29,076 bases of DNA from a virus. The position numbers and the translations under genes are program-made. Below are positions 1 through 12,807 of this stretch, piece by piece. Each line of letters begins with the position of its first letter. Position 1 is the stretch's first letter. The DNA is taken from positions 1 to 29,076 of the IMG/VR virus record IMGVR_UViG_3300030012_001875; one strand, 5' to 3'. The notes beneath the pieces are model-generated. The model was not told where the DNA came from and did no database searches. It saw only the letters and a program-made list of their open reading frames with translations.

Positions 1-1
1 A

Positions 2-88
2 GATTATGACCATGATTGGAATGATGGTGGCACTATTCAATGGCGAGTAACTAAACTATACTTAACTATGGAGAATGATAATGAGTGA
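2..88 (+). CDS. possible 3' end of an upstream gene (partial)
   Basis: The frame starting at base 2 is open to a TGA at 86-88 and would encode a tryptophan- and aspartate-rich tail (DYDHDWNDGG then TIQWRV). It would overlap the next start (ATG 81) by 8 bases, the same ATG-in-stop arrangement used by many genes here. A rival frame (3-50) gives a short hydrophobic peptide beginning MTMIGMMVAL. Neither can be confirmed because the gene begins outside the window. Confidence 0.3.
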   Translation, partial: DYDHDWNDGGTIQWRVTKLYLTMENDNE

Positions 89-338
89 TGAAGAAAATAC
101 TAAAATACTAGAACATATTAGTTTTGTGATAACAGGACTAAATGTGTTTCGTGACCGAGAGGATTTACTAACTGATTTGTTTAACCATGTTGAAGCAGAG
201 ATGTTAGAGAACCCTGTGCCTGTGACAGATTACAGAATTACAAAATCTGTGATAGGATTTATGGAGACTTTATGTGCTGAAGCTGTGTCAGAAGCACAAT
301 TAATGGAGATGGCAGAACAAGCGAAGACTATCCTTTAG
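81..338 (+). CDS. small acidic hypothetical protein (85 aa)
   Basis: Not recognised. The product starts MSDEENTKILEHISF; it is acidic and looks helical throughout, with no membrane segment and one Cys. I prefer ATG 81 over the in-frame ATG at 75 because a GGAG at 70-73 lies 7 bases upstream of ATG 81 and too close to 75. Small acidic helical proteins in the leading region of podoviruses are often early host-takeover factors, but nothing in this sequence shows that. A probable terminator hairpin begins inside its last codons. Confidence 0.7.
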   Translation: MSDEENTKILEHISFVITGLNVFRDREDLLTDLFNHVEAEMLENPVPVTDYRITKSVIGFMETLCAEAVSEAQLMEMAEQAKTIL

Positions 339-373
339 ATTAACTATTTTCACACGATACTAGGATAGTTTTT
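324..373 (+). terminator. possible rho-independent terminator after the first small gene
   Basis: ACTATCCT (327-334) pairs perfectly with AGGATAGT (362-369). The stem extends outward to about 11 pairs (324-334 with 362-372, one G-T), and five T residues follow (369-373). The loop is long (27 bases), so it could be weak or act as an attenuator. The left arm overlaps the 3' end of the gene ending at 338. Confidence 0.4.
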
Positions 374-385
374 GCTTATTAGTTT

Positions 386-450
386 GTGACTAAGACGAGA
401 CAGGAGAACAAAGTTAAATATTTATATTACTCCTTGTTAGTTTTAGTCAC
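386..450 (+). ncRNA. long imperfect hairpin, candidate structured RNA
   Basis: Bases 386-406 fold against 430-450: of 21 opposed positions, 16 are Watson-Crick, 2 are G-T and 3 are mismatches. The outer 8 pairs (GTGACTAA with TTAGTCAC) are perfect. The loop is 407-429 and very A/T-rich. No long reading frame or poly-T tract explains it. It is the first of a series of hairpins in the only large gene-free stretch of the plus-strand arm. Confidence 0.5.
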
Positions 451-459
451 AATTTAACT

Positions 460-561
460 AAAGTGTGAGGGTTGGTAGGGAAATTAGCAGTTAATGAACT
501 ACCCAAAGTGTAAAGCCTAGATTTAATTCGGGGTATCTTTGCTAACCCAACTGCCCACTTT
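460..561 (+). ncRNA. predicted closed three-way-junction RNA of unknown class
   Basis: Four helices can form together. AAAGTG (460-465) pairs with CACTTT (556-561). GGGTT (469-473) pairs with AACCC (544-548). GGTAG (474-478) pairs with CTACC (499-503). GTAAAG (510-515) pairs with CTTTGC (537-542). The second and third are contiguous and could stack. The result is a closing stem with two hairpin arms, a layout common in riboswitches and other compact ncRNAs. I could not match it to glutamine riboswitch, purine riboswitch, hammerhead or tRNA consensus features. Derived by eye; folding energy not computed. Confidence 0.4.
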
Positions 562-648
562 TTAGCATGAGATTGAAGATATTAAGTTATCGTTAGATTA
601 GAATGCTAATAGTCTCCCCAGCAGTATGTTGTTGACTGTTGGACGACT
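562..648 (+). ncRNA. two further perfect or near-perfect hairpins
   Basis: TTAGCAT (562-568) pairs with ATGCTAA (603-609) with no mismatch. CCAGCAGT (618-625) pairs with ACTGTTGG (635-642) through 8 pairs including one G-T, enclosed by AGTC (611-614) with GACT (645-648). The first hairpin starts one base after the three-way junction ends, so 460-648 may be one transcript domain. No coding frame accounts for it. Confidence 0.4.
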
Positions 649-789
649 TTAAAAGTGCAAACAACTAGACTGATTTTTCCTCATTGTGTGGGTGTTTTAA
701 TGTCGATAAATAACAAAACACAACAAGCGTGTCTCTTGCTAGTTTAGACACACAAAACAGAACTAGCACTTAACTAAACGGAGAAAATT
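649..789 (+). other. rest of the gene-free leader before the gene at 790
   Basis: No gene seen. Two short hairpins are visible: GTGTTTT (692-698) with AAAACAC (715-721), and GTGTCT (729-734) with AGACAC (746-751). The stretch ends in the ribosome-binding sequence GGAG (780-783), 6 bases before ATG 790. I found no convincing sigma70 promoter in it. Confidence 0.45.
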
Positions 790-1035
790 ATGACTAAGAC
801 TGAAATATATGAAAGACTTTCTGAACTGAGAGAAGGGGCATTAGGACTACTAACTGAGAAGCTTAGAAGTTTTAATAGACATTGTATTGATAGAGAGCTA
901 GAGAGACCTGAAGGCGATGAAGATTATTCTTATATCGCTAGTTGTGCTATTGACTTAGATTATCTAGAAACTATCAATAATGAAGTATTAGATATCTTAG
1001 AGGACTTGGAGAGGCAAAAGCTTTATGATAGGTGA
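790..1035 (+). CDS. small acidic helical hypothetical protein (81 aa)
   Basis: Not recognised. MTKTEIYERLSELREG opens a predicted all-helical, strongly charged protein with a central ESYIA-type segment (EDYSYIASCAIDL) and an acidic C-terminal helix (EVLDILEDLERQ). The start is well supported: GGAG at 780-783, spacing 6. It overlaps the next gene by 11 bases in another frame, so the two are probably translationally coupled. It begins a run of eight small genes (790-2771) before the SSB gene. Confidence 0.7.
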   Translation: MTKTEIYERLSELREGALGLLTEKLRSFNRHCIDRELERPEGDEDYSYIASCAIDLDYLETINNEVLDILEDLERQKLYDR

Positions 1036-1216
1036 ACTTATTTCGCAATACGGTAGACCTCAAAGTCGTGAGGCCTTTATCTTTAAAAATCGACAGGGCT
1101 TTTTTGTCGAGCTTTATCGTGACACTATGCTAGTTAGGGTGGTCGAATGCTTTGACCACTCCCAAAGCTATGCTGAAGATGTGGCAGAGAATTGGGTACA
1201 AAGAATTTTAAACTGA
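1025..1216 (+). CDS. small hypothetical protein (63 aa)
   Basis: Not recognised. The product has an aromatic-rich beta-looking centre (REAFIFKNRQGFFVELYRDT) and no membrane segment or Cys pair. The ATG at 1025 lies inside the last codons of the previous gene, typical of the coupled small genes here. The next gene starts 8 bases after its stop with its own GAGGTG. Confidence 0.65.
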   Translation: MIGELISQYGRPQSREAFIFKNRQGFFVELYRDTMLVRVVECFDHSQSYAEDVAENWVQRILN

Positions 1217-1224
1217 GGTGACTT

Positions 1225-1398
1225 ATGAAAACTTATGAAGTCTATGCTAAACAACCAACCCACTATAAAGTTAGAGTAAAAGCTAATTCTGTGGACGAAG
1301 CTTTAAAACTAGCTGACCAAACCGGTGGAAGTAAGTGGGAACTGGTCAAGCACGGAGCTTGGCAGAACTATCACATTAGCGAGGTGTTTGATGAGTAA
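1225..1398 (+). CDS. small hypothetical protein (57 aa)
   Basis: A short reading frame from ATG 1225 to TAA 1396-1398, starting MKTYEVYAKQPTHYKVRVKA and containing a segment (SVDEALKLADQTGG) that reads as a strand-strand-helix fold. Compact proteins with an 'xYxVxVxAxSxDEAxxxA' pattern are frequent in phages, but the role is unknown. Support comes from the GAGGTG ribosome site at 1215-1220, close packing with both neighbours, and an 8-base ATGAGTAA overlap with the next start. Confidence 0.65.
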   Translation: MKTYEVYAKQPTHYKVRVKANSVDEALKLADQTGGSKWELVKHGAWQNYHISEVFDE

Positions 1399-2802: not shown

Positions 2803-2837
2803 AGTTTATGCAATTATGCCAAAAACGGAGTAAATTT

Positions 2838-3275
2838 ATGGCAATACAAGAAGGAATAGCCTACTGGGCTAGTGTAACTACTCCTAATACCAAGTATGAA
2901 CCTGTTTATACTGTGGACTTAGTAGTGAGTGATGATGTCGCCAAAGACTTTGAAGCTCGTGGTTTTAAAACAAAAGAAATCACAATAAATGATGAAGTCG
3001 TTGGAAAAGCAATAACTTTTAAAAGAAAGGTGAATGGCCCTAACGGAATGGTTAGACAGTCGCCTAAGCTTTTAGATGCAAACAAAGTTCCAATAGATGA
3101 ACTGGTCGGTAACGGCTCTAAAGTTAGAGTGCAGTATAACGAGTGGGAAACATCTAATAAGTATGGGGACTTCAAAGGCTTGGACTTTCAAGCTATGCAA
3201 GTTATTGACTTAGTTCAATATAAATCTAGTGATGGTTCAGAATTCGATGCCATCGAAGGAGGAGAAGAATTCTAA
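2838..3275 (+). CDS. single-stranded DNA-binding protein, T7 gp2.5-like
   Basis: The 145-residue product starts MAIQEGIAYWASVTTPNTKY; ATG 2838 has GGAG at 2827-2830 (spacing 7). The in-frame ATG at 2808 is rejected because it sits at the predicted transcription start. The body is beta-rich (ITFKRKVNG, GSKVRVQYNEW, GLDFQAMQVIDLV), fitting an OB-fold. The tail is acidic and ends in Phe (DAIEGGEEF), the hallmark of the gp2.5 family, whose acidic tail and terminal aromatic residue contact polymerase and primase-helicase. It coats ssDNA and organises the replisome encoded downstream. Shorter than T7 gp2.5 (232 aa). Strong dedicated promoter and terminator. Confidence 0.75.
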   Translation: MAIQEGIAYWASVTTPNTKYEPVYTVDLVVSDDVAKDFEARGFKTKEITINDEVVGKAITFKRKVNGPNGMVRQSPKLLDANKVPIDELVGNGSKVRVQYNEWETSNKYGDFKGLDFQAMQVIDLVQYKSSDGSEFDAIEGGEEF

Positions 3276-3548: not shown

Positions 3549-3578
3549 ATAGGGTGTCTTCGGATGCCCTATTTTTTT
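3549..3578 (+). terminator. rho-independent terminator with UUCG tetraloop
   Basis: AGGGTGTC (3551-3558) pairs with GATGCCCT (3563-3570) around a TTCG loop closed by C-G, the exceptionally stable cUUCGg tetraloop. Two more A-T pairs extend the stem to 3549/3572, and a T run follows (3572-3578). It sits 10 bases before the primase-helicase start, ending the SSB transcript or lowering read-through into replication genes. Confidence 0.85.
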
Positions 3579-3588
3579 GAGGTCAAAG

Positions 3589-5259
3589 ATGGAACAAGAT
3601 TTAAAATTTAAGAAGTATCACTTGCCTTGTCCGGCTTGTGGTAGTAGCGATGCTCTTTCGGTTAATGAGAATGGTTCAGCTAAATGTTTTAGTTGTGATG
3701 AATTCTTTCCGAAAGGGGTAGACAATCAAGATAATATCGTATCTAATAAAACTAATATGACAGAAACAGTTAGAGAACTAAATGCTCATGGCGGAGTCTT
3801 CGCCAAACTAGCGGATAGAAATATCTCAAGGGAGACTGCTGAGAAGTATGGAGTCAAGACTGTTTATGATAGTGCTGGTCAAATAGCTCAACATATTTAT
3901 CCTTTGTATATCAACAATGAACTAACATCAAACAAGATTAGATATGTTCGAGACAAAAAGTTTAGCTATGACGTTAGCCCTCAAGGAGTTGGTTTGTTTG
4001 GTCAACAACTTTTCAAAGAAGGTGGTAAGTATTTAACCATAACTGAGGGTGAGTGTGATGCGATGGCCGCTTACGAATTACTAGGCAGTAAGTGGGCAGT
4101 CACTTCTATCATTAGAGGAGCTTCCGGAGCAGTCAAAGATATTAAAGAGAACTTAGAATACATAGAAAGCTTTGATAATATTGTCATTTGTTTTGATAAA
4201 GATAGACAAGGCATTGAGTCAGCTAAGAAGGTTGCTAGCATTCTTAAGCCCGGCAAGGCTAAGATAGTCACCTTACCTAATGGTTACAAAGATGCTAATG
4301 ATATGCTTCTCAAAGGCAAATACAAAGAATTTGTTAGTGCTTGGTGGGATGCTAAACTGTATACTCCTAGTGGTATCATTAGAGTATCAGAGAAGAAAGA
4401 TTCTTTTTTAGATAGAGAGAAGAAAGAGTCTGTGCCTTATCCTTGGGCAGGACTAAATGAAAAACTATATGGACTGAGACAAGGTGAGCTAGTAACTTTA
4501 ACGGGTGGTACAGGGCTTGGTAAGTCTAGTATCACGAGAGAACTAGAGCATTGGTTAGTCAAACAGACAGACGACAATGTCGGTATCATAGCACTCGAAG
4601 AAGACTGGCGAAGAACAGTAGATGGTATTTTATCTATCGAAGCTAATGCTCGATTATATGTTGACCAAGAACGAGAGAAGTTTGATGAGTCTACTTTGGT
4701 CGATATGTTTGATAAAGTTTTTAAAGATGACAAGGTTTTTATTCATGCTCATTTTGGGACTAACCAGATAGATGATATCTTTGCTAAGCTTAGATACTTG
4801 ATTGTTGGTTGTGATTGTAAGTGGGTAGTGGTTGACCACCTCCACATGCTTGTTAGTGCTTTAGAAGAAGGTGATGAAAGACGAGCCATAGACAATATTA
4901 TGACTAGACTTAGAAGCTTAGTAGAGGAAACTGGAGCTGGTTTAATTCTTGTTTCCCACTTGAGAAGAGTAGATGGCAACAGAGGCCATGAGAATGGTAT
5001 TGAAGTTTCTCTATCGCATTTAAGAGGGTCTAATAGTATTGGACAATTAAGTGATTGTGTGATAGCATTAGAGAGGAATCAACAGTCCGATGACCCTGAA
5101 GAGGCTCGGACAACTAGGCTTAGAATCTTAAAGTCTAGATATACTGGAGATGTCGGTATGGCAACTGCTCTAATTTACGATAAAGAAACAGGAAGATTGT
5201 CTGAACACCTTGATACTGAATTTAGTATGGCAGAGAACCAGACATCTATTGCATTTTAA
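3589..5259 (+). CDS. bifunctional DNA primase-helicase, T7 gp4-like
   Basis: The 556-residue product, numbered from ATG 3589 (GAGG at 3579-3582, 6 bases upstream; the in-frame TTG at 3577 overlaps that site), is close to the 566 of T7 gp4. Domains in order: a zinc ribbon with C14, C17, C33 and C36; a TOPRIM primase core with ITEGECDAMAA near 150 and FDKDRQG near 200; and a RecA-like hexameric helicase with Walker A GGTGLGKS (306-313), a catalytic Glu in IALEED, Walker B-like WVVVDHLHM and motif H4 ILVSHLRR. It unwinds DNA and makes primers for the polymerase encoded next, whose ATG overlaps its stop (TAATGG). Confidence 0.95.
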   Translation: MEQDLKFKKYHLPCPACGSSDALSVNENGSAKCFSCDEFFPKGVDNQDNIVSNKTNMTETVRELNAHGGVFAKLADRNISRETAEKYGVKTVYDSAGQIAQHIYPLYINNELTSNKIRYVRDKKFSYDVSPQGVGLFGQQLFKEGGKYLTITEGECDAMAAYELLGSKWAVTSIIRGASGAVKDIKENLEYIESFDNIVICFDKDRQGIESAKKVASILKPGKAKIVTLPNGYKDANDMLLKGKYKEFVSAWWDAKLYTPSGIIRVSEKKDSFLDREKKESVPYPWAGLNEKLYGLRQGELVTLTGGTGLGKSSITRELEHWLVKQTDDNVGIIALEEDWRRTVDGILSIEANARLYVDQEREKFDESTLVDMFDKVFKDDKVFIHAHFGTNQIDDIFAKLRYLIVGCDCKWVVVDHLHMLVSALEEGDERRAIDNIMTRLRSLVEETGAGLILVSHLRRVDGNRGHENGIEVSLSHLRGSNSIGQLSDCVIALERNQQSDDPEEARTTRLRILKSRYTGDVGMATALIYDKETGRLSEHLDTEFSMAENQTSIAF

Positions 5260-7043
5260 TGGAATTAGTATTTGATATAGAAACAAATGGATTGCTTTGG
5301 GAATCTACATTAAAAAACCACGAGACTGGTGAGGTCACAAACTTACCACCGGCTTCTAAAATTTGGTGTATTGTTGCTGTTGATGATACTGATAAAGTGT
5401 ATACCTTTACTCCAGAAAGAATTGACGAGGGCATTGAGTTTTTAAAATCCGCTGACAGCTTAGTTGGGCATAATATCTTAGGCTTTGATATTCCAGCTAT
5501 ACACAGGATTAAGCAGATAGACTTATCTAACCATGCTAATATTCTTGATACTTTGACCTTATCAAGATTACTACATCCTACTAGGGAAGGAGGACATAGC
5601 CTAGAGAAGTGGGGATGGAGACTCAACTGCCCTAAGTCAACTGCTCCAATGTTTACTGAGTATAGTAAAGACATGCTTGATTATTGTATTCAAGATGTCA
5701 GGTTAAACAAGAAAGTTTTAGATAAACTAAGGAAAGATAGTGTGGGTTTCTCTAAAGAATCAGTAGAGATAGAACACAAGACCACACAAATATTAATCGA
5801 ACAAGAACTAAATGGTTTTCTGTTTGATGAGAGAAGAGCAATAGATTTATTAAGTTCTTTAAATAAACGAAAGAAAGAAGTAGAGGATGAAGTTCATGCT
5901 ACCTTTAAACCTAAGTGGATTCCTGTTAAAGAAGTCACACCTAAGTTAAAAAAAGACGGCACCTTATCTAAGTCTGGACTTACCTCCGTTGAGTATCAGG
6001 AAAGAGTTGCAACTAATGACACTACTCCTTTTACCCGAAAAGAACTTAGAGAATTTAATCTCGGCTCTCGTCAACAGATTGGTGAGTATCTAATAGACTT
6101 TGGTTGGCAACCCAAAAGGTTTACTCCAACTGGACAACCTATTGTTGATGAAGGTACTCTTAGTAAAATAGCACACATCAAAGAGGCTCAACTCATTGCT
6201 GAATATTTATTAATACAAAAAAGAGTTGGTCAAATTGAATCATGGATTGATAATATCAAAACAGATAATAGAGTTCATGGTGCTGTTATTTCTACTGGAG
6301 CTATTACTGGTAGGATGACACATAGAAATCCTAACATGGCTCAGGTTCCAGCAGTATACAGTCCTTATGGTAAGGAATGTCGAGCTTGTTGGACTGTACC
6401 TGAAGGATATAAATTAGTGGGTATAGATGCTTCAGGGTTGGAGTTAAGAATGTTAGCCCACTACATGTCAGATGAGGAATACATAAATGAAATTATCAAT
6501 GGAGACATTCACACAACTAATCAGCAGTTTGCTGGACTTAAATCAAGAGATGAGGCTAAAACTTTCATCTATGCACTTATATACGGAGCCGGAGATGAAA
6601 AAATTGGAAGCATCGTTGAAGGAAATCGAGCAGATGGTAAACAACTGCGAGAACAGTTTCTTACTAGTTTACCAACACTTAAGGCTCTTAAGACAAGAGT
6701 TGACACAGCAGCTCAAAAAGGATTCCTCAAAGGATTAGACGGTAGGAAAATATTTTTAAGGCATAAACATGCAGCCTTAAACACTTTACTACAAGGCGGT
6801 GGAGCTATCGTAATGAAGAAAGCTTTAAATCTATTGCATGATAATCTTAAAACTTGTAACATTGATTTTAAGTTTGTTGCTAATATCCATGATGAATGGC
6901 AAATAGAAGTAAAAGCAAACCAAGCAAATCAGGCGGGACAGTTAGCTGTGCAAAGTATTCGTGATGCCGGAGAGTATTTTAACATGCGTTGTCCCCTTGA
7001 TGGCGAATTTAAAGTCGGAGACAACTGGAGTGAAACCCACTAA
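5259..7043 (+). CDS. family A DNA polymerase with 3'-5' exonuclease, T7 gp5-like
   Basis: 594 residues against 704 in T7 gp5. The exonuclease domain has D6 and E8 (VFDIETNG), NILGFDIPAI and DYCIQDVRLN, so proofreading residues look intact. Polymerase motif A is GIDASGLELRMLAHYM (D390, E395), motif B is RDEAKTFIYALIYGAG (R430, K434, Y438), and motif C is HDE (544-546). Motif A and B wording is nearly that of T7. Tyr438 sits where E. coli Pol I has F762, as in T7. The thumb insertion that binds thioredoxin in T7 is shortened (about residues 215-260), which partly explains the smaller size. No DnaJ-type insert is present. Confidence 0.95.
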   Translation: MELVFDIETNGLLWESTLKNHETGEVTNLPPASKIWCIVAVDDTDKVYTFTPERIDEGIEFLKSADSLVGHNILGFDIPAIHRIKQIDLSNHANILDTLTLSRLLHPTREGGHSLEKWGWRLNCPKSTAPMFTEYSKDMLDYCIQDVRLNKKVLDKLRKDSVGFSKESVEIEHKTTQILIEQELNGFLFDERRAIDLLSSLNKRKKEVEDEVHATFKPKWIPVKEVTPKLKKDGTLSKSGLTSVEYQERVATNDTTPFTRKELREFNLGSRQQIGEYLIDFGWQPKRFTPTGQPIVDEGTLSKIAHIKEAQLIAEYLLIQKRVGQIESWIDNIKTDNRVHGAVISTGAITGRMTHRNPNMAQVPAVYSPYGKECRACWTVPEGYKLVGIDASGLELRMLAHYMSDEEYINEIINGDIHTTNQQFAGLKSRDEAKTFIYALIYGAGDEKIGSIVEGNRADGKQLREQFLTSLPTLKALKTRVDTAAQKGFLKGLDGRKIFLRHKHAALNTLLQGGGAIVMKKALNLLHDNLKTCNIDFKFVANIHDEWQIEVKANQANQAGQLAVQSIRDAGEYFNMRCPLDGEFKVGDNWSETH

Positions 7044-10934: not shown

Positions 10935-10935
10935 A

Positions 10936-11088
10936 ATGGCAACTAGATGGACTTCAACTAAAAACCATGTTCCTGTTACTGGTGTCAGAGGTAAGAAAAC
11001 CTCTCAAGGTCAAGGTAATTTAGCAACAGCTACGATGAACAAACACAAACGAAGAAGTTTTAAAAAATATAAAGGCCAAGGCAGATGA
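10936..11088 (+). CDS. 50-aa very basic microprotein
   Basis: ATG 10936 lies 1 base after the previous stop; TGA is at 11086-11088. The product MATRWTSTKNHVPVTG continues to a Lys/Arg-rich end (KHKRRSFKKYKGQGR) with almost no acidic residues, so it probably binds nucleic acid or is disordered. The next gene starts in an ATGA overlap, supporting it as real. Confidence 0.6.
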   Translation: MATRWTSTKNHVPVTGVRGKKTSQGQGNLATATMNKHKRRSFKKYKGQGR

Positions 11089-12683: not shown

Positions 12684-12807
12684 ATCTGTGAAAAAATGAC
12701 CTCACAGAATCGCTTGTATCGAACGTAAGATATTCAAGTAATACTATACGTCCAAAATCTAACAAAATTGCTTAGAAGCGATATCTGTAGCTCTCACAGC
12801 ATTTAGC
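12684..12807. other. convergent intergenic junction between the two transcription arms
   Basis: 124 bases where plus- and minus-strand transcription meet. TCTGTGA (12685-12691) pairs perfectly with TCACAGA (12702-12708), and ATTGCT (12767-12772) pairs with AGCGAT (12777-12782) through one G-T. Neither is followed by a proper poly-T tract on either strand, so they may act as weak or bidirectional terminators. No promoter, gene or attachment site is seen. Confidence 0.4.

Follow-up and report, generated by a model that had tools for sequence, protein, structure and literature searches.

Several described classes of small structured RNA resemble, each in part, the arrays that we report here. The type III antitoxins (ToxI, CptI, antiQ) are small H-type pseudoknots with A-rich loops, several of which lie in a row (PMC3475682; PMC5086642). 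A phage counterpart is known from PhiTE, which evades ToxIN by expressing pseudo-ToxI repeats carried on its own DNA, that is, by an RNA pseudoknot decoy (PMC3475682). Mobile hairpins, such as the mitochondrial double-hairpin or repetitive hairpin-forming elements and the bacterial REP/BIME and palindromic elements, are small structured cassettes that insert between genes and into the loops of other structures, with many near-identical copies per genome. Orphan RNAs (GOLLD, ROOL, IMES, RAGATH and similar) are conserved RNAs with structure but no known function, from phage or environmental DNA; they are single families with a fixed architecture. Exonuclease-resistant RNAs (xrRNAs) are compact pseudoknots in viral transcripts, and some of them feature a hairpin whose loop pairs downstream. 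The known xrRNAs belong to RNA viruses that infect eukaryotes, and it is Xrn1 that they withstand.

The locus and its genomic context

The window, namely the whole stretch of 29,076 bases that was analysed, is a virus record with its replication genes on the + strand. These code for a single-stranded-DNA-binding protein (2808-3275, + strand; match to phrog_112); a DNA primase (3577-5259), with blastn matches to genes annotated as primase in Pelagibacter phages; a DNA polymerase-like protein (5259-7043), an identity taken from the parallel gene order in HTVC104P and HTVC115P; an exonuclease with a Cas4 domain; and the two subunits of ribonucleotide reductase. Among cultured phages, HTVC103P, HTVC104P and HTVC115P of Pelagibacter are nearest in DNA sequence and have a similar gene order, and a related primase is found on hundreds of uncultured marine contigs. 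The source virus is a marine podovirus. None of the modules described below was found in a cultured phage, and Pelagibacter is at most a putative host of the window phage.

The replication genes are preceded by the only large gene-free region of the window (339-789), as had been claimed: the ORF list has two other gaps, one about 150 nt long (10935-11084) and one of 124 nt (12684-12807). The original prediction placed a cluster of RNA structures in part of this region. We find that the array runs past that interval on both sides, from about 327 to 768, and comprises about eight RNA modules: the hairpins M0, M1 and M3 and the pseudoknots M2 (with M2b nested inside it), M4, M5 and M7. The features are as follows, with contig counts taken from searches that used the module cores as patterns:

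75-338, + strand: upstream flanking gene, small protein; open frame, kept at the site in three related loci (L010, L004, L162)
327-369, + strand: M0, hairpin with repeat arms 327-334/362-369 and a long conserved loop; overlaps the end of ORF 75-338
384-452, + strand: M1, long hairpin with a 13-bp basal helix (384-396/440-452), an 8-bp upper helix and an AT-rich loop; fold statistics and homologues
459-562, + strand: M2, pseudoknotted domain with P1 459-465/556-562, P2 469-473/544-548, P3 474-478/499-503 and pseudoknot 487-492/549-554; covariation, 21 viral contigs
504-541, + strand: M2b, small module in the third arm of M2, with helix 504-508/537-541 enclosing a near-invariant core 509-536 (TGTAAAGCCTAGATTTAATTCGGGGTAT); 52 viral contigs
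562-609, + strand: M3, hairpin with a variable basal helix 562-568/603-609, inner helices 571-574/596-599 and 578-581/588-591 and near-invariant internal loops; covariation, 19 viral contigs
611-665, + strand: M4, hairpin 611-614/645-648 plus 618-624/636-642 and a pseudoknot between loop 628-632 and the downstream linker 661-665; covariation, 24 viral contigs
667-721, + strand: M5, pseudoknot with an A-rich linker, P1 668-670/702-704, inner hairpin 679-682/688-691 and P3 692-697/716-721; covariation, 27 viral contigs
729-767, + strand: M7, H-type pseudoknot with an A-rich loop, P1 729-734/746-751 and P2 738-744/761-767; covariation, 20 viral contigs
790-1035, + strand: downstream flanking gene (MTKTEIY...), small protein; open frame, kept behind every array variant at the site

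Further units, M6 and M8-M12, occur in relatives only; of these M9 was found in 19 viral contigs by core-pattern search. M0 is the opening element of the array in 9 architectures. Its arms vary jointly in L006 (ACTACCCTT/AAGGGTAGT), and in the window it is followed by TTTTT and is hence terminator-like; the copy in L155 has no T run. The M3 terminal loop bears a passing likeness to the anticodon loop of tRNA-Leu, on which no reading rests.

The two flanking ORFs (75-338 and 790-1035) have no PHROG match (0.001), no Pfam match above the curated cut-off and no PADLOC match. Further downstream, positions 1225-1398 encode a protein of 57 aa that matches the Pfam RNA_pol_inhib model below threshold (13.7 bits; cut-off 27): it is possible that this is a small inhibitor of the host RNA polymerase in an early operon.

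Folding and compensatory changes

The two checks that the original prediction had put forward, namely folding energy against shuffled sequence and compensatory changes in homologues, were both run, and neither went against it. The segment 381-655 folds at -74.1 kcal/mol (z -4.04), and 0 of 200 dinucleotide shuffles fold as well; the density of structure is not due to chance, as had been proposed. For 339-789 the z-score is -3.3 on the + strand versus -2.3 on the - strand. The chain of structures is real and larger than the interval first reported. The 21-position stem placed at 386-450 is present; it actually spans 384-452, where an internal loop and a bulge accompany helices of 13 bp and 8 bp. 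Likewise, the three-way junction seen at 460-561 exists as 459-562, with an outer helix, an inner helix and a hairpin, and holds in addition the module nested in the third arm and the pseudoknot 487-492/549-554. Both hairpins proposed at 562-609 and 611-648 were recovered, the loop of the second also pairing with the linker 661-665. Beyond the reported end lie two further pseudoknots (667-721, 729-767), and ahead of the array the hairpin 327-369.

Comparisons across homologues point to base pairs upheld by selection in six module families. Since the structures were partly derived from the same sequences, the percentages of paired cells given here are inflated, and the shuffles leave relatedness in place. 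In M1 100% of cells are paired (52/52; 90.3% shuffled), with double-sided changes at 6 of 13 pairs among just four divergent homologues. The corresponding values are 97.0% versus 88.2% for M2, with double changes at 9 pairs, the pseudoknot, which covaries in L152, included; 95.0% versus 82.6% for M3 (8 of 15 pairs doubly changed); 97.6% versus 88.9% for M4 (3 of 5 pseudoknot pairs doubly changed); 92.9% versus 84.3% for M5, where 5 doubly changed pairs span all three helices; and 100% versus 94.0% for M7, with 4 double-changed pairs among 9 distinct sequences and not one of 500 shuffles reaching that level. When the partner strand is displaced by 1-3 columns, pairing falls to 16-56% for all six (M1, M2, M3, M4, M5, M7).

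The strongest independent check on the pairing is the out-of-sample result for the M4 pseudoknot, which was defined on eight sequences and then tested on eleven others. In these 11 later-found sequences 54 of the 55 predicted pairs form, versus 46.4 with shuffled partners; 2 of 10,000 partner shuffles reached 54. A single comparison illustrates the same behaviour: the window and its closest relative, L010, are nearly identical near M4, and the pseudoknot reads GTTGT/ACAAC in the former and GATAC/GTATC in the latter, with both halves changed and the intervening segment identical.

The unpaired positions also carry a signal. In M2, M3 and M4 their identity is 0.94 versus 0.82-0.88 for paired positions, a pattern that speaks against bulk structure and in favour of a recognition or a fold that is specific; M5 and M7 show no such excess over the paired positions.

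Exchange and nesting of whole modules

When the region is aligned with relatives it matches piecemeal, and the matching pieces are whole structural units. Profile-based annotation recovered 37 distinct multi-module architectures among the loci compared, seven of them at the orthologous site between the same two genes. In L010 M3 is missing as a clean 48-bp absence. Nesting is equally modular: M3 sits within an M9 loop in L082 and L164 and within an M8 loop in L096, L098 and L100; M2b lies directly inside M9 in L152 and inside M10, itself inside M9, in L027, L157 and L165; and in L011 the M2 arm is occupied by M6 where the window carries M2b. The host flanking helix is intact in every nesting case. 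M2b thereby occurs in many differing host helices, being found alone or nested in M9, M10 or M2. Upstream of the primase gene in relatives, a basal helix of the GAGAG/CTCTC type is kept, with a top that bears either M3 or M2b. Within the 21 large records, M2, M2b, M3 and M5 have 0 or 1 copy each; L100 holds two diverged M5 units within one array, and L152 two M2b units. A match of HTVC104P to the M3 model (24 bits) lies inside a CDS and was rejected as chance. The modules are thus almost certainly independently folding RNA cassettes that are gained, lost, swapped and nested as whole units.

Some sequence details at the junctions are recorded here as observations. In L140 (636-731) M2b stands upstream of an M2-like core, with AACTGT before and GAAATTAACAGTTACTGAACT after it, and M2 looks circularly permuted there. 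M4, M5 and some M7 copies share the opening word TAG(T/A)C(T) (window 610-614 and 666-670; L006:1067), and TTAGTTTG precedes both M9 and M1. Such short shared words could possibly serve as microhomology for cassette recombination.

Transcriptional setting and neighbouring genes

Across paired cells G-U outnumbers A-C by 79 to 8 (24 to 7 by columns), and by 47 to 8 when the invariant G-U pairs of M3 are excluded; the sense-strand RNA is therefore the folding molecule. The modules are almost always intergenic and oriented as the neighbouring genes: for M2 both neighbours are co-oriented in 18 of 19 cases and opposite in 0, and for M2b they are co-oriented in 46 of 58. The apparent exceptions stem largely from spurious short ORFs of a simple caller, which also creates some false gaps where genes overlap and whose whole-contig gap counts carry no weight here. 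Window 1-1300 yielded no sigma-70-like promoter, against 4.1 expected by chance. G005 (locus L214), a close relative, has promoter-like sites 5' of the operon, ahead of the genes that precede the array. From this placement the array would most simply lie within an early polycistronic transcript.

The genes next to the modules vary. By crude k-mer clustering, the ORFs 3' of modules fall into roughly 50 dissimilar clusters, and hence no gene is cognate to them. The loci L085 and L099 have an M3-M4-M5-M7/M7' string 3' of a gene or away from genes, which is not a leader position. M7 has a median of 41 nt to the next ORF and lies directly 5' of start codons in several phages; in the window its end is about 12 nt 5' of the Shine-Dalgarno of ORF 790-1035, which lies outside any modelled helix. 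Different genes follow M7 in L045, L115 and L155, and the M7 of L099 has no nearby gene start.

Comparison with described RNAs

Rfam 15 at the gathering threshold gave 0 matches in the window, bearing out the remark that no RNA family is recognizable, and 0 in 16 related loci (127,699 bases). Permissive matches (E 0.5-3.7) are at the level of chance; a RAGATH-27 match at 696-768, with 20.6 bits against the 76.1 required, was set aside as such. Searches of 50,697 phage records with the arrays of the window and of L162 returned chance pieces only, and no exact match to the cores of M3 or M2b, the two tested, was present in 84,980 bacterial and archaeal genomes. A literature search, from whose reach most subscription papers were excluded, found no description of such arrays. 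The lack of Rfam matches, the strong covariation and the sense-strand G-U bias favour the earlier suggestion of a phage non-coding RNA. Two spacers of HTVC115P (L170; 2117-2303 and 2738-2874) look pseudoknotted by eye, with pairings of GGCGG/CCGCC and GTGGTTT/AAACCAC; their fold statistics are weak and convincing homologues are lacking, and they are not claimed as members.

With the type III antitoxins the window array shares a row of small H-type pseudoknots with A-rich loops, and M7 and M5 covary as pseudoknots. However, the tandem repetition of one pseudoknot unit that is the hallmark of ToxI is absent from 300-830, where the modules differ in sequence and fold, and no endoribonuclease toxin stands beside the array: ORF 790 and nearby ORFs have no Pfam match above cut-off and no PADLOC toxin match. 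With no tandem unit, recognized toxin or Rfam match, and several unrelated folds per array, we rejected a type III antitoxin. The M4 hairpin, whose loop pairs just downstream, resembles some xrRNAs in topology, without a sequence or model match. The presence and absence of modules at homologous sites (M3 present in the window and absent in L010; seven architectures) recalls REP elements and MITEs. In contrast to such mobile hairpins, the modules are mostly single-copy and sense-oriented, several are pseudoknots, and multiple near-identical copies were not seen for M2, M2b, M3 and M5 in the 21 large records. Unlike orphan RNAs such as GOLLD and ROOL, they constitute many small families recombined into varied arrays. 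One small gap holds at least seven structured RNA elements, and its relatives about fourteen, without an Rfam match; the arrays lack a match in annotated phage genomes, and evolution by swapping and nesting of whole folded units within viral transcripts is, as far as we could find, undescribed.

Possible functions of the cassettes

A function that travels with the module, is tied to no particular gene and mostly needs one copy suggests autonomous domains that act on proteins. We tentatively favour, at slightly under an even chance, a function that faces nucleases or other proteins. Each cassette would act alone, wherever placed in the transcript, by offering a protein an RNA surface of specific three-dimensional shape; host enzymes that cut, degrade or sense RNA would be the likeliest partners. 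The knots might either block such enzymes, as a shield for phage mRNA, or occupy them, as a decoy, and the turnover of cassettes would follow shifts in hosts or defences. M2, M3 and M4 have near-invariant unpaired cores within helices that drift, which is consistent with this, as are sense intergenic placement, the absence of a fixed neighbour gene and the 0 or 1 copy per large contig; pseudo-ToxI of PhiTE is a precedent for a phage pseudoknot decoy (PMC3475682). However, the conserved unpaired residues could serve tertiary folding alone, those of M5 and M7 show no excess of conservation, and the doubled M5 of L100 and M2b of L152 depart from single copies. The related cultured phages also infect Pelagibacter, whose streamlined genomes are thought to be poor in defence systems, and this counts against a shield or decoy.

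It is conceivable, if unlikely, that the modules are generic cis-acting mRNA elements, compact folds between cistrons that stabilize, process or insulate the early mRNA and are interchangeable in that compactness alone matters; REP hairpins and exonuclease-resistant RNAs offer a parallel. The sense-only placement in gaps of polycistronic mRNA, the interchange of M3-bearing and M2b-bearing tops on one basal helix ahead of the primase gene and the xrRNA-like topology of M4 all fit. Generic structure, however, has no need of near-invariant unpaired cores over dozens of contigs, and modules also occur 3' of a gene or far from genes (L085, L099).

Selfish RNA or DNA cassettes, spreading by recombination at short shared junctions (e.g. 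TAGTC, TTAGTTTG) and harmless in the loops of structured spacers, would explain the nested insertions, the clean 48-bp presence or absence of M3, the many non-homologous sites and the shared junction words. We consider them improbable: copy number is 0 or 1 per contig, no mobility gene is encoded, the cores are strongly conserved, and those of M3 and M2b are absent from the 84,980 prokaryotic genomes.

A regulatory leader of the gene at 790, be it riboswitch-like or a protein-binding translational operator, had also been suggested, and the location of M7 just before start codons and before the Shine-Dalgarno of ORF 790 speaks for it. We regard it as very doubtful. The same modules precede roughly 50 dissimilar ORF clusters, so that a riboswitch-like stable tie to one downstream gene or pathway is absent; they are sometimes 3' of a gene; M2-M5 have no fixed gene, and M7 itself precedes different genes; relatives retain the 790 gene yet alter most of the array; no Rfam riboswitch matches; and the Shine-Dalgarno is free of modelled helices.

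A DNA-level element (replication origin, packaging site or recombination hairpin), the other role once proposed, is highly improbable. The inverted repeats, the AT-rich loops and the location 5' of the replication genes would suit it. Against this, G-U is tolerated ten times as often as A-C, orientation follows transcription, the modules have moved among many sites, and individual ones are missing in related phages; neither the fixed position nor the DNA-level symmetry of an origin was found. Chance structure, for which one might cite the ease with which AT-rich RNA folds in general, is to all intents dismissed by the shuffle z-scores, the covariation and the out-of-sample pairs of M4.

To return to the protein-facing function that we favour, an extended form of it, which we would not bet on, is that marine phages have in common a combinatorial library of RNA domains that work autonomously and in many cases are pseudoknots; as cassettes they would be recombined in early transcripts, and each might occupy or block a different host RNA-acting enzyme. 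Such a library would do in RNA what the exchangeable anti-defence cassettes of phages do in protein. Should the cassettes indeed target RNA enzymes of the host, phage counter-defence by non-coding RNA becomes directly testable; if they stabilize mRNA, they show transcript protection in phages of AT-rich ocean bacteria. Either way, they supply strongly covarying families for structural work.

Gene-free regions in related contigs

Two relatives have another gene-free region, of roughly 800 nt with dense short hairpins: L214:6680-7506 (record G005, 46,680-47,506) and L215:4449-5237 (record G010). In both, sigma-70-like promoters adjoin a terminase-like gene; the L214 region has two perfect divergent promoters (TTGACA, a spacing of 16-17, TATAAT), and L215 has similar sequences by eye. 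Transcription from the leftward promoter could yield a long non-coding RNA. Finally, the gaps L215:1807-4082 and L217:12601-15001, at opposite ends of record G010, are identical or nearly so in length, composition and folding energy, which suggests a terminal direct repeat of more than 2 kb or an assembly wrap-around.
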